The position numbers were made by a program, and so were the translations under genes. Of a DNA stretch of 34,292 nucleotides, positions 3,001 to 32,135 are shown in pieces (the stretch's first letter is position 1; every line of letters starts with the position of its first letter). The notes under the pieces are model-generated. The model was not told the DNA's origin and did no database searches. It saw only the letters and a list, made by a program, of their open reading frames with translations. The DNA is from Archaeoglobaceae archaeon (GTDB lineage: Archaea; Halobacteriota; Archaeoglobi; Archaeoglobales; Archaeoglobaceae). The stretch covers positions 1 to 34,292 of the forward strand of contig WAKM01000047.1 in NCBI GenBank assembly GCA_015523335.1, in the 5' to 3' direction.

Positions 3001-3349
3001 CATTAGCACATACTACAACGTGCCTCCTACTGACAGCTACGCAAAGGTATTCGGTGGAGACGACGACATACTCGTAGTCAAGGATGTTACGATCACAGAG
3101 AATGTAACAGCCGTAGCCACACCTACACCGACCCCGACCCCAACTCCAACCCCGACTCCGACCCCAACTCCGACACCAACTCCAACACCTACGCCAACTC
3201 CAACTCCGACACCAACGCCTACACCTACGCCCACAAAGACGCCCGCTAAGCCAACGCCCACACCTACGAAGAAGTCACCTGGATTCGAAGCGATCTTCGC
3301 CATCGCTGGACTGCTGGCAGTCACTTACCTACTAAGAAGAAGACAGTAA
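65..3349 (+). CDS. S-layer-like surface glycoprotein with PGF-CTERM anchor
   Basis: A 1094-residue secreted protein, probably the main S-layer or another abundant cell-surface protein. Residues 1-24 form a signal peptide (Lys/Arg-containing start, hydrophobic core, likely cleavage after ATASA). The long middle, residues 25 to about 1015, is beta-rich and looks like successive Ig-like domains, with many N-x-S/T sites fit for N-glycosylation. Residues 1019 to about 1068 are a Thr-Pro stalk, likely extended and possibly O-glycosylated. The C-terminus carries S-P-G-F (1071-1074), a hydrophobic segment and a final LRRRQ: the PGF-CTERM sorting signal that archaeosortase A cuts before lipid anchoring. 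The start is fixed by a strong Shine-Dalgarno site. It is followed by a T-rich terminator, so it is probably monocistronic. The surface location is firm; the S-layer role is inferred from size, architecture and apparent expression strength. Confidence 0.85.
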   Translation: MKGLGKIGLAILATLLIAVATASAATVTIAVNKTASVNHVSNYIISGLNYTAIDVNVSNLPVTAPNNWTYFYVNISGCNAKIVGYENLTGNSITVDKISDTSIKVTNQSTSALSSVKLLLKVFPEVTGTLKINVDVYNKTNARVDSGNTTIDVKASDTGSPLPIDNIQLKYYNGTNVQFMIKFSPASDYKANTYPKIIQYDYGNKITIDVYNYNPNTDYYTMVEVKNLDNGLIAKSFSMGKGVTYGTFTIDTTEIGPGNYTIIITNGPMKWNITDPSAPTNAGAHKIYVKSVSPIVSVSLMNPRTPVAMGDIAKFKIKVQGYVGAATVKVEGPFENSPVTKTLYFGGSNGTEQIFLVDTSNTTEFKNAHAGTWELKVIVGSTTATYDFQVVDVTVSANLPSTAYLSQEIKLSGVTNIAETGSSYDANGDNYVYVYIFSPNGSLIQWNNGVWVINTSLTTSNVNPETDLVHVSCKVNVKSDGTWEFAHNLKLNLSWDTGAYRIDVVARTNSSPNAPSSMYDHETYYINVKKPKIEWRMSKLTFTNGESIVFKGIATVNAGTNVYIACTSGSLKDLLEEPISNNYIVVSVSTDGTWKSNEYHISPSAARTSYTLVAYITKDNNYHEYTSSEVLCSAYTTITVVKATINAKLSRQVLVRGADVVLSGHSPIDTLYLYTDKEGVFDNIAKLPSTSTWLTKDHPTLVVKTDSNGNFKITLTVSKTVDSGSYILYVIAPANTSEINLGTDAYVQIPVTIQSVGFVHVPDKIVITRGGQKDVYIAVNAEPDTVVIAAYKLKGHGVDIDYGTPPNFHGFNKFSKWNETNGTYWMFVTLYPYYNPDTTSLNSTWTPGCKLLPVGQYEFSIKLYKKSTGNYWEEADEVKIPLIIEPVKLTVDVPSIVKKGDEIVVKIKENRAGERSYDHIYVVLDLGTKLRKYESVALNASGEAIVKIPTADITPGTYKLYVRDTLGNDGPNDQWFVNNISTYYNVPPTDSYAKVFGGDDDILVVKDVTITENVTAVATPTPTPTPTPTPTPTPTPTPTPTPTPTPTPTPTPTPTPTKTPAKPTPTPTKKSPGFEAIFAIAGLLAVTYLLRRRQ
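3119..3270 (+). repeat. Thr-Pro codon repeat inside the surface-protein gene
   Basis: A low-complexity tract of alternating Thr (ACN) and Pro (CCN) codons encoding the stalk of the surface protein. Third positions vary between A, C, T and G, so the DNA is not a perfect microsatellite; this suggests selection for the Thr-Pro peptide rather than recent slippage alone. Near its end Lys and Ala residues interrupt the pattern. Confidence 0.9.
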
Positions 3350-5198: not shown

Positions 5199-8100
5199 GT
5201 GAGTATGGAGGTTAAGTTGCCATCCGAAGAGGAAGTTGACGAACTTGTCGGAGGCTTGAAGTTTAACACCACAGCTGAGATTGAAGTTCCCAAGAGGTTG
5301 ATCGATCAGGTTATCGGACAGGATCATGCCGTTGAAGCTATAAAGAAGGCCGCGGTGCAGAAGAGGCACGTAATGCTCATCGGCTCCCCGGGAACAGGTA
5401 AATCGATGCTAGCAAAAGCCATGGCTGAACTTCTACCGAAGGAAGAACTTGAAGACATCCTCGTATTCCCGAATCCGAAGGATCCGAATCAGCCGAAGAT
5501 CAAGGTCGTTCCGGCCGGTAAGGGAAGGGAGATAGTCGAAGCTTACAAGCAGGAAGCCCTGAAGAAGGCTCAGGCAAGGAACTTCTTCCTGATGATGCTC
5601 GTTTTCATGATAATCGGCTACACAATTTTGATTAGCCCTAAAGACTTCATCTGGGGCATCATTGCCGCGATACTGCTGTTCATGGTAGCAAGATACATGA
5701 TGCCGAGAGAGGAGAGAAACGTTCCAAAGCTCTTGGTTGACAATGCGGATAGAGAAACCGCCCCTTTTGAAGATGCAACCGGAGCTCATGCCGGCGCTTT
5801 GTTCGGAGACGTGCGTCACGATCCATTTCAGTGTTTTGAGGGAAATGAGTGGGTTATTGTGAAAAAAGATGGAAAATTGGAAAGATTAAAGCTGAAAGAT
5901 CTCGTAGATCAATTATTAGAAGAAAATTATAATATTACTGAAAAGAATGGAATTAGGGTATGCTACAAAGACGTATACAACGAAAACATCAGGATTTTAA
6001 CCAACGACGGTTTTGCCAGATTGCTATTCGTAAACAAGAGATTGGGGAAGCAGAAAATTAAGAATGTTATCAACCTAAGAAAGGATTTTTGGCTTACCTT
6101 AACTCCAGAGCACAAGGTCTACACAACGAAAGGTCTGAAAAGGGTTGATGAGATAACGGAAAGCGATGAATTGATTTCAAAGCCCATTACGATAATCGAC
6201 GAATACGATATCGCGAGGACGTATGATGAGAGGGAGTTTGAGAAGTTCGTAAATTACAACAGGTGGAGAAGATCAAAACTTGAGGTCGGATACAAGAGGG
6301 CTTCTAAGATTTTGGGCATCAAGCAGAGCACGATGAGATGGTGGTTTGCCGGAATGAAACCTAAAAGCGTCCAGCTCATCGAAAAGCTTAGATGCAAGGG
6401 TTTGATTCCTCTGAGAAGTGATGACCGAAGACTAGAGGATATCGCGTTGATATTGGGTGCATTATTCGGAGACGGTTGCATCGACAGAAATCTCAGCACC
6501 CTCAGCTTCACATCGAGTGAAAGGGAGATGGTTGAAAGGTTTGCCGAAATCGTTAGGCGTATATTCGGCGAAATTCTTTATGAGATAAAAGAAAACAGAG
6601 GTGCAAAAGGTGGAAGTTACCTATTCAGAACTTGGGATAGGAGCGTCATCAGGTTCTTCGTTGCTTTAGGTGCTCCGGTTGGCAAGAAAACGGAGATAAA
6701 GTTCGGATTTCCCGAATGGGTTCTTACGAGACCGAGCTTATTCTTAGCATTCGTCGATGGTCTGTTCAGTTCAGACGGTTGCGTTCCGAGATGGTCGTAT
6801 TCGAGAAGATTCAACGGATCGTTCGAGATTGCCCAAATTACGGATGATGTTGAAAACAAGATGGAGTTCTTTGAAACGATTTCAAGATTCCTCAGCAAGT
6901 TCGGCATAAAGAGCAAGCTTAGGATAGAAAAGCACGGAGATAGGTGGAAGATTAGGCTGATATTTGAGAACTCATTGGAAAATGCTGTAAGGTTCCTCAG
7001 CTTGATACCTATCAGCCTCTCAAACCGCAAACGATTCAAGTTCCTAAACGAGATCGAGATGTGTCTGGGAAAAGTTGAACTCGAAAACTTCGAGTTTATA
7101 ATCACGGAAGAGGAGGTGGACGTAACATACAACGTAACAACGGAAACCGGCAACCTGCTCGCCAACGGATTGCTCGTTAAGAACTCTGGCGGCTTGGAAA
7201 CTCCGGCACATGAGAGGGTTGAAGCCGGAGCAATTCATCGCGCTCATAAGGGAGTTCTATACATAGATGAGATAAACACGCTAACGATAGAATCTCAGCA
7301 GAAGCTACTTACAGCGATGCAGGAGAAGAAGTTCCCGATTACCGGACAATCGGAGCGTTCGAGCGGTGCGATGGTTAGGACCGAACCAGTGCCGTGCGAT
7401 TTCATACTCGTTGCTGCTGGAAACATGGACGCACTTATGGGGATGCATCCGGCTTTGAGGAGCAGGATCGAAGGTTACGGATACGAGATATACATGAACG
7501 ATACCATGCCGGATACCCCCGAAAACAGGAGGAAACTCGTCAGATTCGTGGCTCAGGAGGTCGTCAAGGACGGCAGAATTCCGCACTTCGACCGTTACGC
7601 TGTTGCTGAGATTATAAGAGAAGCTAAAAGAAGGGCCGGAAGGAGAGGACATCTAACGCTCAGACTGAGAGAGCTCGGAGGTCTTGTTAGAACGGCAGGA
7701 GACATCGCGAAGAGCGAAGGTTCCGATGTAGTCAAATTGGAGCACGTGCTTAAGGCTAAGAAGATAGCCAAAACGATTGAAGAGCAGTATGCGGATGAAT
7801 ACATTGAAAGGAGGAAGGACTACAAGCTATTTAAGATAGAGGGAGCCGAAATAGGAAGGGTGAACGGTTTAGCCGTAATAGGTCAATCTGCGGGAATAGT
7901 TCTTCCGATCATTGCGGAAATTACGCCGGCTTTAAGCAAGGAAGAGGGAAGGGTTATAGCCACTGGAAGGTTGCAGGAAATTGCGAGGGAGGCTGTTATG
8001 AACGTTTCCGCAATAATCAAGAAGTTCACAGGCAGGGACATCTCCAACTACGACATACACATACAGTTCGTCGGAACTTACGAAGGTGTAGAGGGAGATT

Positions 8101-8441
8101 CGGCAAGCATAAGCGTAGCCACAGCGGTTATATCGGCTTTAGAGGGTATTCCGGTTGATCAAAGCGTTGCGATGACCGGAAGTTTGAGCGTTAGAGGAGA
8201 TGTTCTGCCGGTTGGCGGGGTTACTCAGAAGATCGAAGCCGCTATTCAAGCCGGTCTGAAGAAGGTCATAATCCCGAAGGACAACTTGGACGATGTCTTA
8301 CTCGATGCCGAGCACAAGGGCAAAATTGAGATAATTCCCGTTTCGAGAATTGAAGAGGTCTTAGAGCACGCCTTGGTTGAATGCGATGAGAAGAGAAAGT
8401 TAATGGAGAAGTTCAAGCAGATTGTCTACTCCAATAATTAA
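5199..8441 (+). CDS. lonB: ATP-dependent protease LonB, interrupted by an intein
   Basis: The precursor is 1080 residues; removing the intein (212-662) leaves a 629-residue archaeal LonB, a membrane-bound AAA+ protease facing the cytoplasm. Walker A is GSPGTGKS (62-69). Two membrane helices lie at about 129-147 and 151-168, inserted between Walker A and B as is typical of LonB. Walker B is VLYIDE (686-691). The protease domain has the Ser-Lys dyad: Ser968 in GDSAS and Lys1011 in TQKIEA, 43 residues apart as in bacterial Lon. The start is GTG at 5199 (ATG at 5205 is possible); a TATA box at 5171-5179 favours a leaderless start near 5199. The protein would be inactive until splicing, since the intein separates Walker A from Walker B. 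Confidence 0.95.
5832..7184 (+). other. Intein in LonB (451 residues, with LAGLIDADG endonuclease)
   Basis: In-frame intein between host residues ...RHDPFQ and SGGLET, which join cleanly across the gap. It begins with Cys212 (CFEGNEW) and ends ...GLLVKN before a Ser+1. Block B is visible as LTPEHKVYT. Two dodecapeptide motifs, LGALFGDGC (419-427) and [10 protein letters not shown] (519-528), each keep an acidic residue, so the homing endonuclease may be active. A helix-turn-helix-like stretch ([18 protein letters not shown], from residue 365) precedes the first motif and may bind DNA. The penultimate residue is Lys rather than the usual His. From memory, Pyrococcus Lon proteins carry inteins at a comparable site. 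Confidence 0.95.
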
Positions 8442-9566: not shown

Positions 9567-9639
9567 ACATCGTTTGCTGAATGGAAAGATATCTTTTTCG
9601 CATCAACATTTTTATACTTTGCCAATCATTTTTACATCA

Positions 9640-11889
9640 ATGGAAGCTGAGATCTGGGTCGAAAAGTACAGACCGAAAACGCTCGATGAAGTCGTTGGGC
9701 AGGATGAGGTAATTAAAAGGCTCAAGAGTTACGTTCAAAAGAAGAACATCCCCCATCTGCTTTTTGCCGGTCCTCCGGGAACCGGGAAGACAGCTACCGC
9801 CATCGCCTTAGCAAGGGATCTATTTGGCGAGAATTGGCGAGATAACTTTATAGAGATGAACGCTTCAGTAACCCCAGACACACCTATCCTCGTAAGAATC
9901 AACGGAGTGATCAAGAGAACTACGTTTGAAGAGATCGATAGAATGTTTTTCAAAGACGAAAAAGAAGAATACGTGGTTCCGATCAATTTGGAAACTCTAA
10001 GCTTCCGCGAAGATGTTGGATTTTATCCCGTTTCGTTCATAGCAAGACACAAAGCTGATAGAATTCTGAAGATAAAGTTCGAAGGCGGAGAGGTGAAAAC
10101 AACACCAGATCACTCGGTCATGGTTCTAAACGAAAAAGGGGAGATAGTCTCTAAGAGAGCTGACGAACTCAAGAAGGGCGACTTTCTGCTGTCGTTTAAG
10201 AAATGCTTAGAGGGGTCAGAGTTATCGATAAATCTGCTGGAATATCTGCAGAGCTACAACAACCCGAAGCTAAGAACCGTGCTGACGGAGTTCCCGATCA
10301 ACGAGCAGACATCTTGGATAATGGGACTATTTTTGGCTGAAGGCTGTCTGAGTTTTAGAAACGGAACTTCTGGACAAGTAATATTTACAGTAAAAGAGCA
10401 GGAACTAATTGAACGAGTAAAGAGCTTCGGTTGCGCTTTTGGCATTTCGACATACACCCAGCCGGCATATTCCGGCTTTGATAGAAGTAGAGCATCAGCC
10501 GTTCACGTTAAACTTCTGAATACTCAGCTCGCAAGGTTCTTCAGAGATATCTTCAGCGGGCATGTAGCAAGATCGAAGAGAGTTCCAGAGATAATATTTA
10601 ACAGCACATTGCGAAACAGACTTTTGTTCCTAATGGGTTACATGGGTGACGGATGTGGAACTTGGGGAAGATACGTAAGATATACCTCCGTATCTAAGGA
10701 CATATTGATAGACATCGCTTGGCTCGGTAGGATTTCTGGTTTAGAGACATCGGTGTTCGATAGGGAAGTAAGACTCGTTTGGGATGTGTTCTCATACGTA
10801 AGATCAGAGTTACTACCAGTTGAGCCGTTTGAGATGTTTTTCAAGCAGATAGACGGAAAGATAGACATCAATTGGAAGTATCTACTTAGACATCAACTCT
10901 ACAGCGGAAAGAGAAGAGTTAAGAAGTCTACACTGCTGAAGATTCTGAAAGCTATTAGAACTGAAGAGCTGGATGAGGAAGAAAGAAAGACGTATTTGAG
11001 ACTCAAAGCTTTAGCTGAATCCAGCCTGTATGCTGTGGAGATCAAGGAGATCGAAAAGATGAGCTACGATGGATGGGTTTACGACTTCAGCGTTCCGAAT
11101 TCAGAGGTGTTCTTCGGCGGAACTACACCCGTTTTGTTGCACAACTCGGATGAGAGAGGAATAGATGTCGTTAGACACAAAATAAAGGAATTTGCAAGGA
11201 CTGCTCCTATTGGCGGTGCTCCGTTCAAGATCATATTCTTGGATGAAGCCGACGCTCTGACTGCAGATGCACAAGCGGCGTTGAGAAGAACCATGGAGAT
11301 GTATTCGAAAACTTGCAGATTCATACTGAGTTGTAACTACGTCAGCAGAATCATAGAGCCGATACAGTCGAGATGTGCGGTATTTAAGTTTAAACCCGTT
11401 CCGCCGGAGGCTATGAAGAAGAGACTGCTTGAGATAGCAGAGAAGGAAGGCTTAAAGATCACGGAAGACGGGCTCGAAGCACTAATCTACATAGCGAACG
11501 GAGACTTCAGAAAGGCTATAAACGCCCTGCAAGGTGCCGCAGCCTTCGGAGAAGTTATCGACGCCGAAGCCATATACCAGATAACCGCTACTGCTCGTCC
11601 GGAAGAGATCAAGAAACTGCTTGAAACTGCTCTGGAAGGCAGATTCATGGAAGCTCGACAGATGCTCGACAGAATGATGGTGGAATACGGAATGAGCGGG
11701 GAAGATGTAATTTCACAGCTTTTCAGAGAGATAATAGCCTCGAAAATCGATGAGAGAACGAAAGTGATGTTAATAGATAGGCTCGGCGAGATAGATTTCA
11801 GGCTTACCGAAGGAGCGCACGACAGAATTCAATTGGACGCCTACTTAGCATATCTCGCAACTGTCGGTAAGCGGAAGAAAGAATCGTAA
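9640..11889 (+). CDS. rfcS: Replication factor C small subunit, interrupted by an intein
   Basis: The clamp-loader ATPase that loads PCNA on DNA at the replication fork. The precursor is 749 residues from ATG 9640; without the intein it is 322, normal for RfcS. Walker A is GPPGTGKT (44-51), Walker B is IIFLDEADAL, and the arginine-finger motif is SRC (IQSRCAVFKF). The C-terminal collar follows. An upstream in-frame ATG at 9574 would add 22 residues unlike RFC; the family start MEAEIWVEKYRPKTLDEV and a TATA box at 9609-9618 favour 9640. The large RFC subunit, often adjacent in archaea, is absent from the window. The intein splits Walker A from Walker B, so activity needs splicing. Confidence 0.95.
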   Translation: MEAEIWVEKYRPKTLDEVVGQDEVIKRLKSYVQKKNIPHLLFAGPPGTGKTATAIALARDLFGENWRDNFIEMNASVTPDTPILVRINGVIKRTTFEEIDRMFFKDEKEEYVVPINLETLSFREDVGFYPVSFIARHKADRILKIKFEGGEVKTTPDHSVMVLNEKGEIVSKRADELKKGDFLLSFKKCLEGSELSINLLEYLQSYNNPKLRTVLTEFPINEQTSWIMGLFLAEGCLSFRNGTSGQVIFTVKEQELIERVKSFGCAFGISTYTQPAYSGFDRSRASAVHVKLLNTQLARFFRDIFSGHVARSKRVPEIIFNSTLRNRLLFLMGYMGDGCGTWGRYVRYTSVSKDILIDIAWLGRISGLETSVFDREVRLVWDVFSYVRSELLPVEPFEMFFKQIDGKIDINWKYLLRHQLYSGKRRVKKSTLLKILKAIRTEELDEEERKTYLRLKALAESSLYAVEIKEIEKMSYDGWVYDFSVPNSEVFFGGTTPVLLHNSDERGIDVVRHKIKEFARTAPIGGAPFKIIFLDEADALTADAQAALRRTMEMYSKTCRFILSCNYVSRIIEPIQSRCAVFKFKPVPPEAMKKRLLEIAEKEGLKITEDGLEALIYIANGDFRKAINALQGAAAFGEVIDAEAIYQITATARPEEIKKLLETALEGRFMEARQMLDRMMVEYGMSGEDVISQLFREIIASKIDERTKVMLIDRLGEIDFRLTEGAHDRIQLDAYLAYLATVGKRKKES
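9865..11145 (+). other. Intein in RFC small subunit (427 residues, with LAGLIDADG endonuclease)
   Basis: Inserted within the conserved host motif, between ...EMNA and SDERGID. It starts with Ser76 (SVTPDTPILVRING) and ends with the canonical LLHN before Ser+1. Block B is seen as TTPDHSVMV. The dodecapeptides are MGLFLAEGC (228-236) and MGYMGDGC (332-339); both keep acidic residues, so the endonuclease may be functional. Ser1 rather than Cys1 distinguishes it from the LonB intein. Confidence 0.95.
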
Positions 11890-18015: not shown

Positions 18016-18465
18016 TTAGCGGGTTACGTTCCAAACGAACATGGCTTCATCGTATGCCAAAATTCTACCCTCCCTATTTGCAACCTGAACTACGACTAAA
18101 ATCCCGTCACCGTTCTTCGGAACGTGTTTGGGATCTTTAAATCCGATGTAAGCTGTTATGTTGTCCCCTTCTGTCTCTATCGGAAGGCAAGTCGACGGCG
18201 TCACGAACCGTAACTTTCCGCCTCTCCAATCGTAAGCGAACAGGATTATGCTCGGAAAAGGAGTGTTATACCAAGGATACAGAGTCGGAGCTTCTTTTTT
18301 GGTTATAAAGGCAGGTTCTACCTTTTTTATTTTTAAGATGTGCTGACCCTTGATGTCGTAGTGCATGAAGACGACCTTTATAGCTGGAAGCTTTCTCTCT
18401 TGAGAGCATCCCGAAGCTAAAATTACCGAGAGAATGATAAATGCGAACAAAAGCTCTTTCTTCAT
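18016..18465 (-). CDS. Predicted lipoprotein of unknown function
   Basis: A 149-residue exported protein: a basic start (MKKELL), a hydrophobic core, and a lipobox-like LASGC with Cys20 as the likely lipid-modified residue. The mature part is beta-rich ([20 protein letters not shown], then [11 protein letters not shown]) with no family I recognise. Its ATG overlaps the stop of the cytochrome gene upstream (ATGA), so the two are co-translated; it may be an extracytoplasmic partner of the cytochrome. GatB has its own promoter just downstream. Confidence 0.7.
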
Positions 18466-19046
18466 ATTAGACCACCTAAGAATCCAAGAATACTCCTTAT
18501 TATGTCAAACAGAGAAAACGTCTTCGTCTTTTTAACTTCTTCAACTTTTGTGACGTTGAGTCCTATCTCCTTGCTTGCCGGTTTTATGAACTTGTATATG
18601 ACCTTTCCGTGGCAAAACTCGCATATGTCCATTAGTATGTCACCGTGAATCTCGTGAATCCCTCCTTTATGACAGTAATGGCAGTCCTTGGTGCCGGGAT
18701 TCGAAACGAGTCCCGCTCCGTGACATACGGAACAATTGAGATTTCTGTGAGGTATGTGTATTTCCCTTATCCCTATGTTGCTCTCGTTGTAGTCTGGCCC
18801 TATATGACACTTTATGCATATGTTGTTTCCGTGAAGCTTGTCGAGCTTGTTCATGTCTATTTTTTTCCCCCTCCAGATGTCGAGACTGTGGCATCTACAT
18901 CCAGAAAACATTTTTATTTTCTCGTTCTTCGGTATCAGTAAATCATGACAAGGAAAACAGATTTCTCCGTAGCCCGGAGGATGAACCCAAGCCGAAACCG
19001 GAACCGCCAGCATGAGGAGGATTAACAAAGTCAGTATCAGTCTCAT
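18462..19046 (-). CDS. Multiheme c-type cytochrome, membrane-attached
   Basis: A 194-residue exported electron carrier. A signal peptide covers residues 1-19 (MRLILTLLILLMLAVPVSAW). Five CxxCH haem sites lie at Cys30, 77, 105, 122 and 142, and a sixth, shortened CRCH, at 50-53. Many other His residues could be distal ligands. The C-terminal [17 protein letters not shown] is a hydrophobic or amphipathic helix that may hold it to the membrane. An in-frame ATG at 19085 exists, but a TATA box (TTTATATTC, about 19064-19073) places a leaderless start at 19046. It overlaps the lipoprotein gene. It could pass electrons between menaquinone and external metal or sulfur compounds; this is inference. Confidence 0.85.
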   Translation of the reverse strand: MRLILTLLILLMLAVPVSAWVHPPGYGEICFPCHDLLIPKNEKIKMFSGCRCHSLDIWRGKKIDMNKLDKLHGNNICIKCHIGPDYNESNIGIREIHIPHRNLNCSVCHGAGLVSNPGTKDCHYCHKGGIHEIHGDILMDICEFCHGKVIYKFIKPASKEIGLNVTKVEEVKKTKTFSLFDIIRSILGFLGGLI

Positions 19047-19123
19047 CACAGACAATTCGTTCTTCGAATATAAATCGATTTCCATCCGTTACGCTTATCT
19101 ATTCGCCTACCGATCTTTCGATT

Positions 19124-24519: not shown

Positions 24520-24593
24520 GCCCGGGTAGCTCAGCCAGGGAGAGCGCGCGGCTGAAGACCGCGTAGTCCCCGGTTCAAATCCGGGTCCGGGCA
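24520..24593 (+). tRNA. tRNA-Phe (anticodon GAA)
   Basis: A 74-base cloverleaf. The acceptor GCCCGGG pairs with TCCGGGC (one G-U), with discriminator A. The D arm is GCTC/GAGC, the anticodon arm CGCGG/CCGCG with loop CTGAAGA (anticodon GAA), the variable loop TAGTC, and the T arm CCCGG/CCGGG with loop TTCAAAT. No intron is present and the 3' CCA is not encoded. Confidence 0.97.
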
Positions 24594-24596
24594 TAT

Positions 24597-24831
24597 AATC
24601 TCTCTTCTCAGACCGCTTTCTATCAGAATTATCTCCTCTCTGAGCTTTATATCAAAGTAGGAATTCCTCAGCTTTCTGATTTTATCTAAAGAGTGAACTG
24701 TATCCTTCCGATATCACGTGAGAACACTCAAGATATGGAAAAATAATTATTCTATCAAATCAATCCTGAGATGTTCAGAGTAGCTAAGATATTTCTGCAA
24801 ACTAAATTTACCCTTTTCGACACCATACTCC
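24597..24831 (-). pseudogene. Possible decayed gene remnant between tRNA-Phe and the Usp gene
   Basis: On the minus strand one frame reads protein-like sequence on both sides of two in-frame stops (TAA at 24747-24749, TGA at 24714-24716): first EEYGVEKGKFSLQKYLSYSE and a few more residues, then after the stops KDTVHSLDKIRKLRNSYFDI and KLREEIILIESGLRREII. The second part runs open up to and into the tRNA gene, with no ATG. It is charged and helical, like a real protein, but I recognise no family. It may also be chance, as the stretch is short. Confidence 0.3.
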
Positions 24832-25251
24832 TCACTTAACGACCAAAACTGAGCAGTTTGAGTAATCCACTACTTTATCACCAGTTCCGCCCAAAAACCT
24901 CCTTTTGAAGGGATGCTTGGTTTCAACACCGAGAACGATCAAGTCGGCTTTAATTTCCTCCGCTTTCTTGACTATCTCTTCACTTGGCTTACCAAACTCA
25001 AGATGCGTCTGGATTGTAACACCGCTTTCTGCGGCAATTTTAGAGGCTTCGTTCAAAAACTTTTGATGATATTCTGCGGCTTTCTTTTTCTCTTCCTCGT
25101 ATTCGTCACGTATTTTGGCAAATTCTGGAATTCTTGCAACTGTAATCACATGTAACTCGGAATTGCACAATTTTGCCATCTCTATAGCAACCTTCAAAGC
25201 CTTGTAAGACCCTTCGGAACCATTAAAAGCGGCAAGTATCTTCTTAAACAT
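24832..25251 (-). CDS. Universal stress protein (UspA family)
   Basis: A 139-residue soluble protein: start FKKILAAFNGSEGSYKAL, middle NSELHVITVARIPEF, and the end DLIVLGVET...GGTGDKVVDYSNCSVLVVK. The usual ATP-binding loop is altered (GVETKHPFKRRFLGGTGD), so nucleotide binding is uncertain. ATG 25251 is chosen over the in-frame TTG/GTG-type codons upstream because GGAGGTG (25264-25258) lies six bases before it. It overlaps the end of the NuoL-like gene by 8 bases, so it is the last gene of the riboswitch-led operon and may sense or respond to the same stress. Confidence 0.9.
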   Translation of the reverse strand: MFKKILAAFNGSEGSYKALKVAIEMAKLCNSELHVITVARIPEFAKIRDEYEEEKKKAAEYHQKFLNEASKIAAESGVTIQTHLEFGKPSEEIVKKAEEIKADLIVLGVETKHPFKRRFLGGTGDKVVDYSNCSVLVVK

Positions 25252-27055
25252 TTCCAGCACCTCCAGCAACGTAAATATAAATCAGAACTAAAAGCACTGT
25301 CAAGAATATATAAAATACGTAGATCCCCAATTTACCGTTCATCAGGTAACGTCTAAAAATGTCCGCAACATTTCGCGTAACTTCAGCGGAGTTAATGTAT
25401 AATTTCTCAATGAAGTCACCCCACATAACTCTGCAGACTTCTTCCTTCGTATTATATAACCACCTTAAAGTAAGTCTCGGGATGTTAGAGTAAGCCAAAG
25501 AGTTGTAACTTTCACTTTCGCAACCTCCATTCCAAGGTTTTGTAAGTCTGTATTTTTTCCTCGTTAAGACGAACAGGAGAGACACAAAGGCGACCAGAAA
25601 TACGAAGACGAAAGTAGGTGAGATCCCTCCGAAGCTCTTTCCTGAAAGGATTAGGTATCCGGGAGGAATGTTGAGTGCACCACTAATAAATTCGTCAGAA
25701 CTAATTCCTGAGAGAAGTTTGACTACGGGTGAGTAGAATCGAAGGACTAATTGCGGTAGGGCGCCAAGCAGGACAACCGTAACTATTAGAACTATAATTC
25801 CAAAATCTGTAGCCTTTACTCTCTCTTCTTCCGCCTTCTGGAAACCGAAGGAGATTATTTTGCTCATGGTTATAGTGCTAATTCCTGCAGCTAAGGCTAT
25901 TACAGCGCCAACGAGTAGCACCAGAATTCTGTATTCTACACTTGAGATTTCAAAGGACTGAAAGAGGGTTTCGAGTGCCATCCACTCTGAAACGAAGCCG
26001 GGGAATGGAGGGATTGCGGCCAGTGATAAGGCGGAGATGTAACCCCCAAGAACAGCAATTCTACTCAGTCTTGCTTTCTGGAGCCTTGCTAAATCTGAAG
26101 ATGATTTTTCAACAAGACCTGCAACGAGAAAGAGCAAAGCCTTCGCTGTACTGTGTGAGAAGGCAAAGAATAGAGCCGAGATCAGGGAGAATGCAGCCAA
26201 AATTGTGTTGTTGTGCCATGTTGCAATTATGTAAGCTCCGATGAGTACAAAAATTATTCCATCGTTCTCGATTGTGCTATATGCTGGGAGCTCTTTGACT
26301 TTCTCTGAAGTGGCTGCAAAAAGTGCCCCTATTGCAGCAGTAATAGCTCCAAGGATCAAGATTATGACCGAGACCCAGATAGGAGGTGTAGCTATAGAGA
26401 GCATCCTGAAGATTCCATAAACACCCATTAGCGTTAACACAGCGCTGAGCAACGATGACATATTCGAGGGTGCTGCTGAGTGAGCCGGTGGAAGCCAGAT
26501 GTGGAACGGAAATATTGCCATCTTAATACTAAAACCGAGTATGGCTATAAGCAGGATCCAGCTCAGCTCAGCTGAGTTTCTCCAGTCATTAAAGTGGATA
26601 CTTCCGGTCGATGCAATACCCATAGCGAAGCTGAGAAGGATTAGAATCGTGCTTAGCTCACCAAAAGCTAAGAAGCTGTATGCAGCTCTGCCACTTTCCT
26701 TTCTCGCGGAGATTGCTAAGAAAGACGCTATAGTCATTCCTTCCCATCCCACGAGGAAAGTCAAGGCGTCCCTGCTCACAAGGATCAAAACCATCGACAT
26801 AATTGCAAGTGCAAAGGATGCTGAAAGCCTGTTATCGTAGTGATCGTATCCTATCGAATATATACTTGCGGAGAACCAAACCAAAGACGAGATCAGCATG
26901 AAATATCTTGTTATAGGTTCAAGCTGGGCAGTCAGTGAGAGATAAATCAGCAGAGCACTACTGATTGCTGAAAGGATGTAGGATACCTTCTTAGACAGAA
27001 ACGCTATGAGCGAAGCTACAATGAGGAGTATAAAACACGATAAAAGCAACATCAT
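25244..27055 (-). CDS. NuoL/HyfB-like proton- or cation-pumping membrane subunit
   Basis: A 603-residue polytopic antiporter-like subunit with about 15-16 membrane helices. Family parts include LTFLVGWEGMTIASFLAI (the key Glu in helix 5), KMAIFPFHIWLPPAHSAAPS (the Lys and His of the ion path), FAFSHSTAKALLFLVAG, and PPFPGFVSEWMALETL. The C-terminal part extends past residue 480 with a long cytoplasmic stretch and a final membrane helix (FYIFLTVLLVLIYIYV), as in HyfB/MrpA-type proteins. Its ATG overlaps the stop of the small-subunit gene. It should move H+ or Na+ across the membrane. Confidence 0.9.
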   Translation of the reverse strand: MMLLLSCFILLIVASLIAFLSKKVSYILSAISSALLIYLSLTAQLEPITRYFMLISSLVWFSASIYSIGYDHYDNRLSASFALAIMSMVLILVSRDALTFLVGWEGMTIASFLAISARKESGRAAYSFLAFGELSTILILLSFAMGIASTGSIHFNDWRNSAELSWILLIAILGFSIKMAIFPFHIWLPPAHSAAPSNMSSLLSAVLTLMGVYGIFRMLSIATPPIWVSVIILILGAITAAIGALFAATSEKVKELPAYSTIENDGIIFVLIGAYIIATWHNNTILAAFSLISALFFAFSHSTAKALLFLVAGLVEKSSSDLARLQKARLSRIAVLGGYISALSLAAIPPFPGFVSEWMALETLFQSFEISSVEYRILVLLVGAVIALAAGISTITMSKIISFGFQKAEEERVKATDFGIIVLIVTVVLLGALPQLVLRFYSPVVKLLSGISSDEFISGALNIPPGYLILSGKSFGGISPTFVFVFLVAFVSLLFVLTRKKYRLTKPWNGGCESESYNSLAYSNIPRLTLRWLYNTKEEVCRVMWGDFIEKLYINSAEVTRNVADIFRRYLMNGKLGIYVFYIFLTVLLVLIYIYVAGGAGNV

Positions 27056-27705
27056 TTACTCAACCCCCCTCTTGCTTTCAAAAGCCCGTGTAGCAGGGCA
27101 ATAGGCGGTGGCGGGCAACCGGGGATTTTTACATCGACTTCAACGTATCTTTCAAGTCCCCCCTTACCTTCTTCAAAAATCCCACCACTCAGCGCACATG
27201 TGCCCGCAGCTACGACAATCTTTGGTTCAGGCATAGCATCGTAAGCTTCAAGCAGTGCATCGATCATTCTGTCAGTTGGGTAGCCTATAACCAGTAACAC
27301 ATCTGCATGCCTGGGAGTAGGTGTGAAGAAGAAGCCGAGCCTGTGGAAGTCGTAGAAGGGGTTATTCAGCATTTCGAGCTCCATATTGCAGGCGTTACAT
27401 GAGCCGACATCAACAACGAAAATGTGGATCGAGCGAGAAAAAGGTAAGGATTTTCGGACTTCTGCAAACTCAACATTTCTGCTTCTTTTGAATCCGTATT
27501 CCTCGCACTTCCCGCAAAATATACATTTGCTGACATCGATGGTGTCTGAGATTGCATTCGTTGGACAATATTTTCTTGCAGACTCTATATCCGCAACCTT
27601 AGGCATCGGTATTCCTATCTCCGGCACCTCGTCGTAACTCGGTCTTTTCTTGGGATATTTAGTGGTTAGAATACCTTTCTTTAAACCTCTCAGCACCCAC
27701 CTCAT
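27052..27705 (-). CDS. HyfI/NuoB-like small subunit with N-terminal ferredoxin segment
   Basis: A 217-residue iron-sulfur subunit. Cys47, 61, 64 and 67 (YCPTN, CIFCGKC) can bind one 4Fe4S cluster in a short ferredoxin-like segment. Cys103, 106 (GSCNACNMEL), 170 (GTCALSGG) and 197 (PGCPPPP) form the proximal cluster site of complex I and group 4 hydrogenases, all kept. It may combine the roles of HyfH and HyfI in one chain. A Shine-Dalgarno AGGTGAT precedes ATG 27705. The intact clusters suggest the complex still carries electrons although its NiFe site is lost. Confidence 0.9.
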   Translation of the reverse strand: MRWVLRGLKKGILTTKYPKKRPSYDEVPEIGIPMPKVADIESARKYCPTNAISDTIDVSKCIFCGKCEEYGFKRSRNVEFAEVRKSLPFSRSIHIFVVDVGSCNACNMELEMLNNPFYDFHRLGFFFTPTPRHADVLLVIGYPTDRMIDALLEAYDAMPEPKIVVAAGTCALSGGIFEEGKGGLERYVEVDVKIPGCPPPPIALLHGLLKARGGLSK

Positions 27706-27711
27706 AAAAGA

Positions 27712-29013
27712 TCACCTATCCGCCTCAGCAAAACTTAAACCAAAGCTCTCAATTGCGAAGGGAAAATCAGTAAATATATTACCTCTAACTGCATGAGCAA
27801 AAGCAACGTAGTTTATCAGCGACGAGGGTCTTATCCCCACCCACTTTAAAATGTCATCTTTTGCCTCGACAACTACAAGCACATCACCTTGGGGTGCTTC
27901 TACTCTGCCGTAACGGAATCCGTCAGCTTTATTATCACTCTTGAGTGCCGTCTGTGGCATTTCGTTGGCAAGATGTCTGATAATCTCAATGGAGTTCCGG
28001 ATTTCCTCGACTCTCACAACCATCCTCGCGAGCGAATCGCCGCTATGTTGCAAAGCAACACTAAAAGGCGTTTCTGAATAGAATGAGTCGAAGGTTCTTA
28101 CGTCCCTTTCGACTCCAGATCCCTTAGCGGTAACTCCCACCGCATCCAACCGTAGAACATCATCTTTACTTAGCACAGCTGTGTTGTGGATTCTGTCTAT
28201 AAATATCCTCGAATTGAGTAGTAAATCTATGAGTTCCTCAAATTCCTTTTCTATGTCATCCAACTTTCTTAGCAGAATGTCAGTGTCTATGTTCCTTCTA
28301 ATTCCTCCTGGAATATTGAGGCCGAAGATGTAACGGTGTTTGAATAGCTTAGCGTTCAGTCTCAAAACTTCTTCAACTAATGCTGAGAAGTGAGATGTTG
28401 CGACCTTTTGCGAAGCTGCCATGGCAAGCCTCTGGATGACACGAAAGTGGTTGTAAAGTCTCTCCAGCTCCAGAGCGATGACTCTTATGTATTCAGCTCT
28501 GTCAGGTGTATTGTTTCCTTCTACTGCTTTACAGAGTGCAGTTGAATACGCTACAGAATTCGTTCCACACATTCTTTCGATCAAGAACACCGCTTCCTCT
28601 ATTCTTCTACCTACCATTTTATCCTCAACGCCTCTGTACTTGTAACCAAGCTCAGGCACTACATTCAGAATCCTTTCGCCGTAGGTAAGTATTCTAAAAG
28701 CTCCAGCTTCCCACAAACCCGAAGTTACGGGACCGTAGTGTAACTCCACAACACCATTTGGACACTCCATAAGATAGGCATCCATATTACCGCAGAGAGC
28801 ATAGTAAATTGGCCTGAGAGTTCCAAGATCAAATTCGGAGTTGTTTACGTAGGTAAACTGCGTTTTTCCACTATTGTAATCTGTCCAAATGTATATATCA
28901 AGCTCGTCCTTACGGAAGTAAGCGGTGAGAGTAAGTTTTTTATCCTTAGCCATTTCAGCCAGCTCGTATTCGCTGGTCTCTTTGATTGCTTCTTCAACAT
29001 TACCGTGTATCAT
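27712..29013 (-). CDS. Hydrogenase-like large subunit lacking the NiFe-binding cysteines
   Basis: A 433-residue fusion. Residues 1-85 are NuoC-like (LTLTAYFRKDELDIYIWTD); residues about 90-433 are NuoD/HycE-like (HYGPVTSGLWEAGAFRIL, PELGYKYRGVEDKM). In NiFe hydrogenases the first metal motif is R-x-C-G-x-C; here it is ERMCGTNSVAY, with only Cys149. The second, near the C-terminus (DPCxxCxxR), is replaced by GLSFAEADR. So at least three of four Ni ligands are missing and hydrogenase activity is not expected. The rest of the fold is well kept, so this is not a decayed gene. It fits the Ehr class of complexes. Its start overlaps the HyfF-like stop (ATGA). Confidence 0.9.
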   Translation of the reverse strand: MIHGNVEEAIKETSEYELAEMAKDKKLTLTAYFRKDELDIYIWTDYNSGKTQFTYVNNSEFDLGTLRPIYYALCGNMDAYLMECPNGVVELHYGPVTSGLWEAGAFRILTYGERILNVVPELGYKYRGVEDKMVGRRIEEAVFLIERMCGTNSVAYSTALCKAVEGNNTPDRAEYIRVIALELERLYNHFRVIQRLAMAASQKVATSHFSALVEEVLRLNAKLFKHRYIFGLNIPGGIRRNIDTDILLRKLDDIEKEFEELIDLLLNSRIFIDRIHNTAVLSKDDVLRLDAVGVTAKGSGVERDVRTFDSFYSETPFSVALQHSGDSLARMVVRVEEIRNSIEIIRHLANEMPQTALKSDNKADGFRYGRVEAPQGDVLVVVEAKDDILKWVGIRPSSLINYVAFAHAVRGNIFTDFPFAIESFGLSFAEADR

Positions 29014-30368
29014 TTCAATATCACCCCCAAAACTCCAAAGCTTATTGCGAGGGCGATAAGGGCTGATAGCAACGGTATAGCTTCGGCGTAAAGCGGAAGT
29101 TTTCCGCCCTTACCGTAACCGAAGACCATCTTCGTGACGTGATAGTTCAGTGATAGAAAGGACAGAAGTATTGCTATAAGCAAAGTTATCGTGAGAGTTA
29201 GGTTTGAAAGGGAGTGTGAAATTATCACGAGTTCCGCTAAAAAGCTCGCAAAGGGCGGTGCACCTGTTACAGCTAAGGCACCCAGTATCAGCGCTATTCC
29301 TGTCAATCTAAAAGAGTTCAGAAGTCCACTAACTTCCCTAATTTTATCCGTTCCGTAAGTCGTTACCACATTTCCACCAGCGTAAAAAAGACCGGCTTTT
29401 GCAAAGGTGTGAATGATAAGAAGTAGGAATGAGGCAAGCGTAGCTTCTTTTCCGAGTCCTAAACCAGCAGTGGCAATTCCCATGACATCCATACATGAGT
29501 AAGCAAAGAGCCTCATGATAAATTCCTGAGGGATCATTAGAATAGCCGCTATCAAAGCCGTTACAGCTCCAAAAAAGACAGTCATGTTGGCAGCAACGTG
29601 AGCGTTGCTGGCTATGGCTATGGAGAGAATCCTGTAGTATGTGAGAAAAGCCACTGGAAGCAGGGCTGCTGAGAGCATAGCGCTGATCGGCGGTGGAGCG
29701 CATCCATACGCATCGGGATGCCATGTGTGCATAGGAAACAGCCCGATCTTTGTCCCAAGGCCTATAAGAGCGAACGCTACAGCAACTAGGGCGGTGTAAG
29801 GCGGAAGTCTGATCTCATACCAGTTTAAAGTGTTTGACGATGAATATATTACGTCCAGTGATAACAGAGCAAAGCCAAGGCCTACTGAGGCAAGTATCAT
29901 GTATCTCCAAGCAGCTTCTATACTCTCTATTCTCTTTTCCAGCGCTATTAAGAGAACGCTGACGATTGTCGTAGTTTCAAGTCCAATCCACATCAAACCG
30001 AGATTTGGCGTTAAAGACGTGAAGAACATCATCAGGGCAAATAGGTTTAGCAGAGGATAGTAATACCTCCTTTCAGAAGAAATATCACCCGTCCTTTTAA
30101 CATAATATACTGAGTAAGCAGAGGAAAACATGTATACGAAGGCTACGAGAAAGACAACTATTGCCGAGTAGAGATCGACGTAAAATATTCCATCCGTGGC
30201 ACTTCCACCTTTCACTGCTTCAATAAGTAGTAATACAGATACTCCAGCAGTTAGCATTGAGGATAGTAGAGTTATTGCCTCTCTGAACCTTTGGTATGGT
30301 AGCAACGATATAAAGGTGGCAAGCAACGGTGAAAGCAGTAATATCCACACTGCATTCTGCACATCCAT
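29010..30368 (-). CDS. HyfF/NuoN-like antiporter-type membrane subunit
   Basis: A 452-residue polytopic protein with about 13-14 membrane helices. Key parts are LGLMWIGLETTTIVSVLLI (the conserved Glu), GTKIGLFPMHTWHPDAYGCA (the ion-path Lys and His), and LLIIHTFAKAGLFYAGGNVV. This is the second antiporter-like subunit of the complex. ATG 30368 overlaps the stop of the HyfE-like gene (TGATG) and is preferred over the GTG one codon upstream. Confidence 0.9.
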   Translation of the reverse strand: MDVQNAVWILLLSPLLATFISLLPYQRFREAITLLSSMLTAGVSVLLLIEAVKGGSATDGIFYVDLYSAIVVFLVAFVYMFSSAYSVYYVKRTGDISSERRYYYPLLNLFALMMFFTSLTPNLGLMWIGLETTTIVSVLLIALEKRIESIEAAWRYMILASVGLGFALLSLDVIYSSSNTLNWYEIRLPPYTALVAVAFALIGLGTKIGLFPMHTWHPDAYGCAPPPISAMLSAALLPVAFLTYYRILSIAIASNAHVAANMTVFFGAVTALIAAILMIPQEFIMRLFAYSCMDVMGIATAGLGLGKEATLASFLLLIIHTFAKAGLFYAGGNVVTTYGTDKIREVSGLLNSFRLTGIALILGALAVTGAPPFASFLAELVIISHSLSNLTLTITLLIAILLSFLSLNYHVTKMVFGYGKGGKLPLYAEAIPLLSALIALAISFGVLGVILK

Positions 30369-30985
30369 CACCCCACAAGTTTCTCCAGCTCGACGTATCC
30401 GTATTCTTTCTCCGCAGCGAGAATTATGCCCACGAGAACTATGCCAAGCAGATCGAGAAGAACGCCAGCTTCAAACACCATCGGAAGATTCGTAAGGACG
30501 CTCACGTAAAGAAGAGCGTTCTCTTCGGATATATACCCTACAAGTTGTGCGAAAGCATTCTTCCTTGCTATCATTATAAGAAAGCTCAGGAGCAAAAGCA
30601 CAATTGCAAGCACCCCACTCTTAACGTTTAAGATCGAATGAAGTGGTTGGTATAATACATAGCCAACAATTGCCAGCAGAATTCCCGCCAACGTTAAACT
30701 TGGAACTCTCGTCTCAACTTCCCTGTAATCCCAGATGGGATTGTTGCGTATGTCACGTCGTATTATCCAAGGTATCAGTAGCCCTCTTACCATCAGCGTT
30801 AGTATCGACAGTGCTATCAGTTCAATTGAATGCCTGAAAACTCCGAGAATCCCGATGAGAATTGCGAGCAATATCGACTGCAATGCAATAGAGTTTATCA
30901 TCGGTTTTACGTAACTTTGGTTCAGAATCTCGAAAGTCACGAGGATTATTAGAATGCCCAAAAAGTCCACGAGCGTTTCGATCAT
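30368..30985 (-). CDS. HyfE-like membrane subunit
   Basis: A 205-residue, very hydrophobic protein with about six or seven helices, resembling hydrogenase-4 component E (HyfE), which is partly related to NuoK/MrpC. A conserved-looking stretch is LIPWIIRRDIRNN in a cytoplasmic loop. ATG 30985 is chosen because GGAGGTG (30998-30992) lies six bases upstream; a GTG at 30994 falls inside that Shine-Dalgarno site. The gene starts one base after the NuoH-like stop. Confidence 0.82.
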   Translation of the reverse strand: MIETLVDFLGILIILVTFEILNQSYVKPMINSIALQSILLAILIGILGVFRHSIELIALSILTLMVRGLLIPWIIRRDIRNNPIWDYREVETRVPSLTLAGILLAIVGYVLYQPLHSILNVKSGVLAIVLLLLSFLIMIARKNAFAQLVGYISEENALLYVSVLTNLPMVFEAGVLLDLLGIVLVGIILAAEKEYGYVELEKLVG

Positions 30986-30986
30986 A

Positions 30987-31934
30987 TCACACACCTCCGA
31001 ACAAGAAAAATGAAACGATCGCGAGGAGCGCGAGTGTGAAGGATATCGTCAGATAGTCTAGTATCTTGAAGAGCCTAATTTTAGCGAGAGTCTCCTCCAC
31101 AATAACAAAGACGAATATCAAAACGATCATCTTTAGTAGCAATGTCACCACTCCTGTTGCAACAGAAATTGCCGAGTAATCCCTTGCAACACCCCACGGA
31201 AAGGCGAAGACGTTGAGAAAAACTGCCATGAGTATGAAGGACTTCATGTATGCCCCCCATTTAAGTAATGCGTACTGCGGACCCGAGTATTCCATCACTT
31301 TACCCTCGTCAATCATGCCGAACTCCATCAGTCCCTCGCTTTCGATGGGAATCTTTCCGGTTTCAAAGAGAAGCAGCATGAAGAAGGCCGCCACAATTAG
31401 AAGATGAGTCGGTGAAACTATCCATTTCATCTGTGTGGACAAGACTTTATTCGTAACGAAGGGGTTGTTGGTGGAAGTTACCAAGGCAACACCAAAGAAA
31501 ACCATTATGAGTGTAGGCTCAGCGAGGGCTGCAAAGCTTATGGCTCTGCTTGCTCCAATTGCCGTGTAAAAGCTTCCAGTTCTTGTGACAGCTATCACCG
31601 ACACGATCGCTGCGAGCGTAAACAGAAACGCCCCTCCAAGAAAGTCAACCATTGGTGCAAAGGGTAGCGGGTAACCTGCAACGATAGGGAGAACCATGGG
31701 CAGTATCAGATAGCACGAGAAGGCGATAATGGGGGCAAGATGAAAGATCGGAGAAGAAGTTGGGGCTACGACTTCCTTCCTCATGAACTTTATCAGGTCG
31801 TAGTATGGTTGGAAAATACTGACTCCTCTTCGCGACTCCACGATTGCCTCTGCTTTCTTGAGTATTCCTACCATCAAAGGAGATGCGAGAACTACTAGTC
31901 CAACTTGGATAGCATTGACCACTTGCGGATGCAT
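30987..31934 (-). CDS. NuoH/HycD-like membrane subunit, first gene of the fluoride-riboswitch operon
   Basis: A 315-residue protein with about eight helices that joins the membrane arm to the peripheral arm. Family parts are RRGVSIFQPYYDLIKFMRKE (the complex I 'RxGPxxxQPxaDxxK' region), GASRAISFAALAEPTLIM, and LLFETGKIPIESEGLMEFG. ATG 31934 is chosen: GGAGGTG (31947-31941) lies six bases before it, while the GTG at 31943 overlaps the Shine-Dalgarno site. The site is directly next to the riboswitch aptamer. Confidence 0.92.
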   Translation of the reverse strand: MHPQVVNAIQVGLVVLASPLMVGILKKAEAIVESRRGVSIFQPYYDLIKFMRKEVVAPTSSPIFHLAPIIAFSCYLILPMVLPIVAGYPLPFAPMVDFLGGAFLFTLAAIVSVIAVTRTGSFYTAIGASRAISFAALAEPTLIMVFFGVALVTSTNNPFVTNKVLSTQMKWIVSPTHLLIVAAFFMLLLFETGKIPIESEGLMEFGMIDEGKVMEYSGPQYALLKWGAYMKSFILMAVFLNVFAFPWGVARDYSAISVATGVVTLLLKMIVLIFVFVIVEETLAKIRLFKILDYLTISFTLALLAIVSFFLFGGV

Positions 31935-31948
31935 TACGTCCACCTCCG

Positions 31949-32020
31949 AAAGATAGGCGTCATCAGCCCCCTTGTGGGACAGTTAGGGTGGACGCCATCA
32001 CCCGTTGGGGGGTTATCTTT
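31949..32020 (-). promoter_or_regulatory. Fluoride riboswitch (crcB motif)
   Basis: Read on the minus strand, the leader contains every hallmark of the crcB fluoride aptamer: GGGTGATGGCGTCCACCC (32003-31986), then TAACTGTCCC, a short loop, GGGGGCTGATGACGCC (31971-31956). GGCGTC (31996-31991) pairs with GACGCC (31961-31956); GGGTG pairs with CACCC; the CTGATG after the second hairpin is nearly invariant in the class. It compares closely with the Thermotoga petrophila aptamer as I remember it (GGGCGAUGAGGC...GGGCUGAUGGCC). An outer 7-bp helix (AAAGATA, 32020-32014, with TATCTTT, 31955-31949) closes the structure just before the Shine-Dalgarno site. The regulated gene is NuoH-like, at 31934. Confidence 0.93.
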
Positions 32021-32030
32021 GAATTTTTGG

Positions 32031-32041
32031 ATATATAAATT
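32031..32041 (-). promoter_or_regulatory. TATA box of the fluoride-riboswitch operon
   Basis: On the minus strand TTTATATATCC lies about 20-26 bases ahead of the first base of the riboswitch leader (about 32020-32010). The predicted transcript therefore begins at or just before the aptamer. Confidence 0.7.
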
Positions 32042-32135
32042 TTCTTAGGAATTTTATACTTGATGCAACCTTAAAAAAGTAAGGAACATCCAAGCAAATT
32101 GATCTTCCATACAGCAGATGTCGAGTCTGGGGTAT

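Follow-up and report, generated by a model that had tools for sequence, protein, structure and literature searches.

Whether the large subunit encoded in the middle of a six-gene operon for a membrane complex still belongs to a hydrogenase is the question raised by this locus, which lies in a 34,292-nucleotide stretch of an Archaeoglobaceae contig (the whole of this stretch is referred to as the window). The operon runs on the minus strand in the order NuoH-like, HyfE-like, HyfF-like, large, small and HyfB-like subunit, followed by a gene for a universal stress protein (Table 1). An earlier note on the same DNA had proposed that the large subunit has lost its [NiFe] ligands and that the complex is of the energy-converting hydrogenase-related (Ehr) type.

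Table 1. Positions in the window of the operon genes, the former ligand motifs and the surrounding island.
Feature	Positions	Strand	Evidence or residues
tRNA-Phe; the block starts at its 3' end	24520..24593	+	
Presence/absence block of ~7.5 kb (Usp and six operon genes), missing from G001 and G003 of the same genus	24594..32130		
Universal stress protein, last gene of the block, putative link to the complex	24832..25269	-	PF00582
HyfB/NuoL-like antiporter-type membrane subunit, 603 aa	25244..27055	-	NF005046 above cut-off; channel residues E105, K178, K254, H301, K305
Small subunit, 217 aa, one-cluster ferredoxin domain fused to NuoB-like domain	27052..27705	-	C47, C61, C64, C67 (ferredoxin domain); C103, C106, C170, C197 (NuoB-like domain)
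Large subunit, NuoD/HycE type, 433 aa + stop, truncated NuoC-like N-terminal part	27712..29013	-	PF00346 match, tree, model
Former L2 motif G425-LSFAEAD-R433 (DPCxxCxxR in hydrogenases), last residue before stop	27715..27741	-	
Former L1 motif R147-M-C149-G-T-N152 (RxCGxC in hydrogenases)	28558..28575	-	
HyfF/NuoM/N-like antiporter-type membrane subunit, 453 aa	29010..30371	-	E132, K208, H321, E380
HyfE-like membrane subunit, 208 aa	30368..30994	-	NF008556, E 1.2e-9, below cut-off
NuoH/HyfC-like membrane anchor, 318 aa	30987..31943	-	PF00146; D49, R133, E142, E218 conserved
34-bp element between NuoH start and block end, putative shared promoter/operator	32032..32065		

The first of the former [NiFe] motifs reads E146-R-M-C149-G-T-N152-S-V-A-Y (residues 146-156) and the second GLSFAEADR (residues 425-433, with the stop codon directly after), exactly as had been read before. 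Measured against the RxCGxC...DPCxxCxxR consensus, the first cysteine of L1 (C149) is retained and the other three of the four ligands are replaced by N152, S427 and E430. The predicted model of the protein (pLDDT 91) had E. coli HycE as its best PDB match (7z0s_E, TMq 0.91), followed by NuoD of complex I. In an alignment of 26 large subunits from the clade, 24 have Phe at position 152, one has Tyr and the window alone has Asn; Gly occupies position 425 in all 26, and C149 is retained in just 12. The nearest operon-bearing relative, G021, an independent assembly with a 69% identical large subunit, carries the motifs CGTY and GLSFADSDR and hence the same ligand loss, and the same motif loss was found in 25 aligned relatives altogether (G021 and 24 further loci of seven lineages), so that the proposed ligand loss is upheld and a sequencing error is ruled out by its recurrence across independent assemblies. 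Both RxCGxC and DPCxxC are intact in E. coli HycE and HyfG and in the group-4 hydrogenases of some of the same genomes. An Mbh-like large subunit (L018) bears a C-terminal extension and that of the window bears none; the protein ends exactly at Arg433, which means that there is no maturation peptide. Judged by these motifs, the large subunit is predicted to be incapable of binding a [NiFe] centre of known type. The warning that automatic annotation would mislead was borne out for the HyfB-like subunit, which scored 513 bits against the NCBIfam cut-off of 460 for 'hydrogenase 4 subunit B', but not for the large subunit, which exceeded no NCBIfam cut-off and is assigned to the complex I 49 kDa/NuoD-like family (PF00346).

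The small subunit has its cysteines at exactly the eight positions listed earlier (47, 61, 64, 67, 103, 106, 170 and 197). Residues 47-67 correspond in the alignment to the CP of motif one and the CxxCxxC of motif two in NuoI, HycF and HyfH, indicating that a single cluster is retained where a NuoI/HycF-type domain has two; by analogy with complex I, we take it to be the N6b-like cluster adjacent to N2. The NuoB-like part displays the pattern CxxC...C...CP, spaced as in HycG and MbhJ, and since its alignment to both of these is free of gaps across the CxxC, full coordination of the proximal cluster is expected. On the strength of its sequence, the small subunit is assigned as a NuoI-NuoB fusion in which the eight cysteines make two clusters and the distal cluster has been lost; two [4Fe-4S] clusters, one medial and N6b-like, the other proximal and N2-like, should be present. 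The former statement that all cluster cysteines are kept is correct for the proximal cluster but not for the fused ferredoxin domain, which keeps one of the two NuoI/HycF clusters. This loss of the distal cluster, the clade-wide erosion of the other Fe-S sites and the island context described below had all been missed.

In the membrane arm, the equivalents of NuoL E144, K229, H338 and K342, of NuoM E144, K234, H348 and E407 and of NuoH R148, E157 and E228 occur in all focal members checked, the Bacteroidetes locus L048 among them; an apparent shift of the NuoH E-channel glutamates was disregarded, as the alignment there carries an indel. Residues that serve ion translocation in complex I are kept in both antiporter-type subunits and in the NuoH-like anchor. 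No gene for a dedicated electron donor or acceptor is contained in the block, and none for a dedicated electron partner was found beside the operon in the window or in the g7, Thermococcus, Aciduliprofundum, Thermotogae, Bacteroidetes and Metallosphaera neighbourhoods, in keeping with the earlier remark that the electron partner of such complexes is unknown. HdrABC-like genes near the operon of G010 were rejected as a partner, not being conserved elsewhere, and a second group-4 hydrogenase in the same genome was rejected as the true partner, the sole other large-subunit match being an Fqo/Nuo-like NuoD.

Relatives were collected in one scan of named genomes, which gave 31 loci from Archaeoglobaceae, Thermococci, DHVE2/Aciduliprofundum, a Methanopyri MAG, Thermotogae (Mesoaciditoga), Bacteroidetes and Metallosphaera. 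In an unrooted tree of 45 large-subunit rows, calculated with the C-terminal motif left out, the 15 focal sequences formed one clade (100/100), in which the window paired with G021, and a second Ehr-like clade devoid of the ligands (L008, L009, L010 and L105) attached to it (100/100), the Ehr label of this second clade resting on motifs in a tree without a named Ehr reference such as Geobacter EhrL. Both stand apart from HycE/HyfG, from Mbh and from the Nuo/Mbx group, which includes MBS and complex I. The description of the complex as Ehr-like is therefore supported by the placement of the window with other ligand-less sequences, away from hydrogenases and complex I. Since Nuo/Mbx is located among ligand-bearing hydrogenases on the opposite side of the tree, ligand loss probably occurred separately in the Ehr-like group and in Nuo/Mbx. 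Within a single genus, G021 and G010 (L106 and L107) were observed to carry two very different versions of the operon in the same genomic place, with large-subunit identities to the window of 69% and 46%, respectively.

The Ehr name, the loss of the CxxC motifs and the unknown function of these complexes are published (PMC10284858, PMC10432482, PMC7304191, PMC7894505), with examples in Geobacter sulfurreducens (GSU0739-45; PMC7894505), comammox Nitrospira (PMC10284858), ammonia-oxidising archaea (PMC10432482) and CPR bacteria (PMC7304191). The window shares with Ehr a group-4-like large subunit without [NiFe] ligands, the NuoL/HyfB-, HyfE- and HyfF-type membrane subunits and the combination of antiporter-like, NuoH- and HyfE-like membrane subunits in one operon, but differs in the one-cluster ferredoxin domain fused to the NuoB-like subunit, the truncated NuoC part and the size of the operon, which has six genes. 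The C-terminal motif is 'SFG..FADA' in the focal clade and 'NKS.NLSY.G' in the other Ehr-like clade sampled. With group 4 [NiFe] hydrogenases (E. coli HycE/HyfG, Thermococcales Mbh) the fold, the small-subunit CxxC spacing and the HyfB/C/E/F-type arm are held in common, whereas RxCGxC/DPCxxC, the maturation peptide and the distal cluster are missing. MBS (MbxL) has likewise lost [NiFe] ligands (two of four) and has an ion-pumping membrane arm, but contains three Fe-S clusters, a three-Cys proximal cluster and a full Mrp-type subunit set, and falls in another clade. Complex I, Fpo and Fqo share the NuoB-, NuoD-, NuoH-, NuoL- and NuoM-type folds and the C-terminal ..DR of NuoD; they differ from the window, in which the NuoB part carries CxxC rather than a tandem CC, the GPxHPxxHG loop of the quinone site is replaced by GPVTSG and the Tyr position is taken by G150, so that neither the His nor the Tyr is present. 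Their loss of the [NiFe] ligands lies on a separate branch of the tree.

The operon occupies an island. In G001, of the same genus, the flanks are 90% and 97% identical and the tRNA-Phe is followed directly by the end of a GH130 gene; the site is empty in G003 and holds only a short stretch in G002, and the large-subunit gene is also absent from G004. The operons of G021 and G010 adjoin RIO-kinase and KH-domain genes, unlike that of the window. No integrase or long flanking repeats were found at the island, and a viral origin was rejected, as no viral contig was found. Nucleotide identity between the window and G021 is 69% in the operon and 68-75% in other genes, and being so alike, these values cannot by themselves show transfer. 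The empty sites within the genus, the different place in G021 and G010 and the pairing of the window with G021 in the tree favour horizontal gain in the window lineage, with repeated loss as the alternative. The 34-bp element is also found upstream of a conserved ArsR-like HTH gene in the window genome and its relatives, and it is possible that this gene and the operon share regulation through it. Elsewhere in the window, genes for a LonB-type protease and replication factor C contain apparent large in-frame intein-type insertions (5199-8441 and 9574-11889), a candidate small multihaem cytochrome has five CxxCH motifs (18462-19085) and a large repetitive protein of the cell surface, probably S-layer related, combines a (PT)n linker with a hydrophobic anchor at its C-terminus (65-3349).

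HypF is required for the cyanide ligands of the [NiFe] site. It was not found in the operon-bearing genomes G021, G103, G104, G106, G109, G110 and G113; the genomes without it include those of the sampled Thermotogae and three from Aciduliprofundum/DHVE2. G021 belongs to the same family as the window and is 99% complete, and assembly of a [NiFe] site should hence be impossible in it. The window genome has HypF together with a group-1 hydrogenase small subunit, and with such a hydrogenase in the same genome the presence of HypF is uninformative on the Ehr operon. The dN/dS values of the ligand-less genes of G021 and G046 (0.098 for the large and 0.093 for the small subunit) indicate purifying selection. 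Ligand loss throughout the clade, the lack of a C-terminal maturation extension and several HypF-less operon-bearing genomes, among them that of the nearest relative with its genes under purifying selection, together bear out the earlier proposal that the complex, as judged from its genes, is not a hydrogenase. C149 and R147 of motif 1 do remain, and these residues, along with HypF and the group-1 small subunit of the window genome, could be taken to point to an active [NiFe] hydrogenase with a non-standard ligand set; given three lost ligands out of four, a cysteine at position 149 in fewer than half of the clade, no maturation peptide and no HypF in the genome of the nearest operon-bearing relative, this is considered extremely improbable. 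A decaying pseudo-operon, for which the patchy presence inside the genus might speak, is also very improbable, as all six ORFs are intact and overlap or nearly do so, dN/dS is about 0.1 in the nearest relatives and the channel residues of the membrane arm are conserved.

The Fe-S sites have been eroded to different extents in the clade. All archaeal small subunits of alignment A6, the window included, contain the four proximal-cluster cysteines, and nearly all archaeal rows contain those of the ferredoxin domain, one of which is Ser in two Aciduliprofundum-type rows; in alignment A2 the ferredoxin-domain cysteines of G010 and G030 are lost. The Thermotogae small subunits, which like those of Bacteroidetes score below the PF01058 cut-off and were identified from operon position and alignment, lack the ferredoxin domain and C106, with C103 present in L058 only. 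NuoB-like subunits without any cysteine were observed in Bacteroidetes (L048 10283-10774, L052 10250-10747 and L062 10236-10718), with dN/dS of 0.11-0.16 for the cysteine-free pair. No other Fe-S gene was found in the L048 operon, and its channel residues are intact, leaving a complex I-like operon with no predicted redox cofactor. Loss of the NuoB-like cluster cysteines (GSDGSP...GDD...PGD/PGN) was also seen in L009 (962-1477) and L010 (962-1477), from the same phylum as the window; these belong to the other Ehr-like clade and the loss is independent of that in the focal clade. The openly readable literature that was searched contained no report of Fe-S-free Ehr complexes.

The operon is most plausibly, and with moderate confidence, read as a ferredoxin-fed, ion-translocating Ehr complex with a probably non-quinone acceptor. 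A reduced soluble carrier, most likely ferredoxin, would dock on the fused one-cluster domain, electrons would travel by way of the medial cluster to the proximal one, which borders the emptied pocket, and would there reduce a small acceptor other than protons or a complex I-type quinone, and the reaction would drive H+ or Na+ outward through the membrane arm with coupling as in MBH, MBS and complex I. A ferredoxin donor is suggested by the fused ferredoxin domain, the lack of dedicated partner genes and the unrelated archaeal and bacterial hosts, though the loss of the ferredoxin-domain cysteines in G010 and G030 implies that this entry is not essential in every member. To our knowledge, Thermococci and Thermotogae are without quinones, and these hosts, together with the absent quinone-site residues of complex I, argue for a non-quinone acceptor; none was identified among the genes of the operon and its neighbourhoods.

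Against this stands, as the main rival, an ion translocator independent of electron transfer, exchanging cations and protons for pH or Na+ homeostasis, in which the Fe-S relay of the window would be vestigial or a redox gate. It draws on the erosion of redox sites in a clade where operon and membrane-arm residues persist: Thermotogae without the ferredoxin domain and the proximal-cluster CxxC, three cysteine-free Bacteroidetes small subunits evolving under the low dN/dS given above with the L048 channel kept, and the independent cysteine loss of the L009/L010 lineage. Several host names (Mesoaciditoga, Aciduliprofundum, Metallosphaera) denote acidophiles, and the partial or complete loss of the bacterial proximal cluster means that electron transfer may not be the conserved function. 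The proximal cysteines are, however, retained in all archaeal members of A6, the window among them, which argues for selection on electron transfer there, and this rival is regarded as rather unlikely. An MBS-like reductase of sulfane sulfur (polysulfide), in which the proximal cluster is catalytic in the emptied chamber, has a worked precedent in MBS itself, a group-4 relative in which [NiFe] ligands have been lost and this cluster serves as catalyst (PMC7684303), and would suit the many hosts from sulfur-rich vents and the dsrA of the window genome. The CxxC region of MBS is shorter by three residues, so that one iron lacks a cysteine (PMC7684303), whereas the MBH-like spacing of the window leads to an expectation of full coordination and so disfavours a catalytic cluster of the MBS type; the clade is moreover distant from MbxL, and Mbx-type large subunits already exist in operon-bearing Thermococcus and Thermotogae genomes (L101, L092). 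This reductase is judged improbable, and the ferredoxin-fed complex remains the preferred reading for the window. For the clade as a whole, it is tentatively suggested that a hydrogenase-derived, complex I-like machine may have turned into an ion translocator without electron transfer, losing in order the [NiFe] site and the distal, medial and proximal clusters, with the membrane arm under selection and the window as an intermediate whose two clusters serve as relay or redox gate. If this were true, the Bacteroidetes members would be complex I homologues without any known redox cofactor.

The Ehr type itself was already known. To it the present analysis adds a fused small subunit whose relay is cut down to two clusters, relatives that lack HypF, an island that is polymorphic within the genus and a series leading to cysteine-free members. 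Annotations as 'hydrogenase 4' call for caution before such operons are counted as hydrogen metabolism. Ehr complexes are widespread and their function is unexplained, and in this clade the same membrane arm is naturally combined with two predicted Fe-S clusters, with one or with none. Several of the members reside in genomes unable to make the [NiFe] site, and two near-isogenic genomes differ in having or lacking the operon. Such a series and genome pair make testable both the role of Ehr complexes and ion translocation by a complex I membrane arm without electron transfer.
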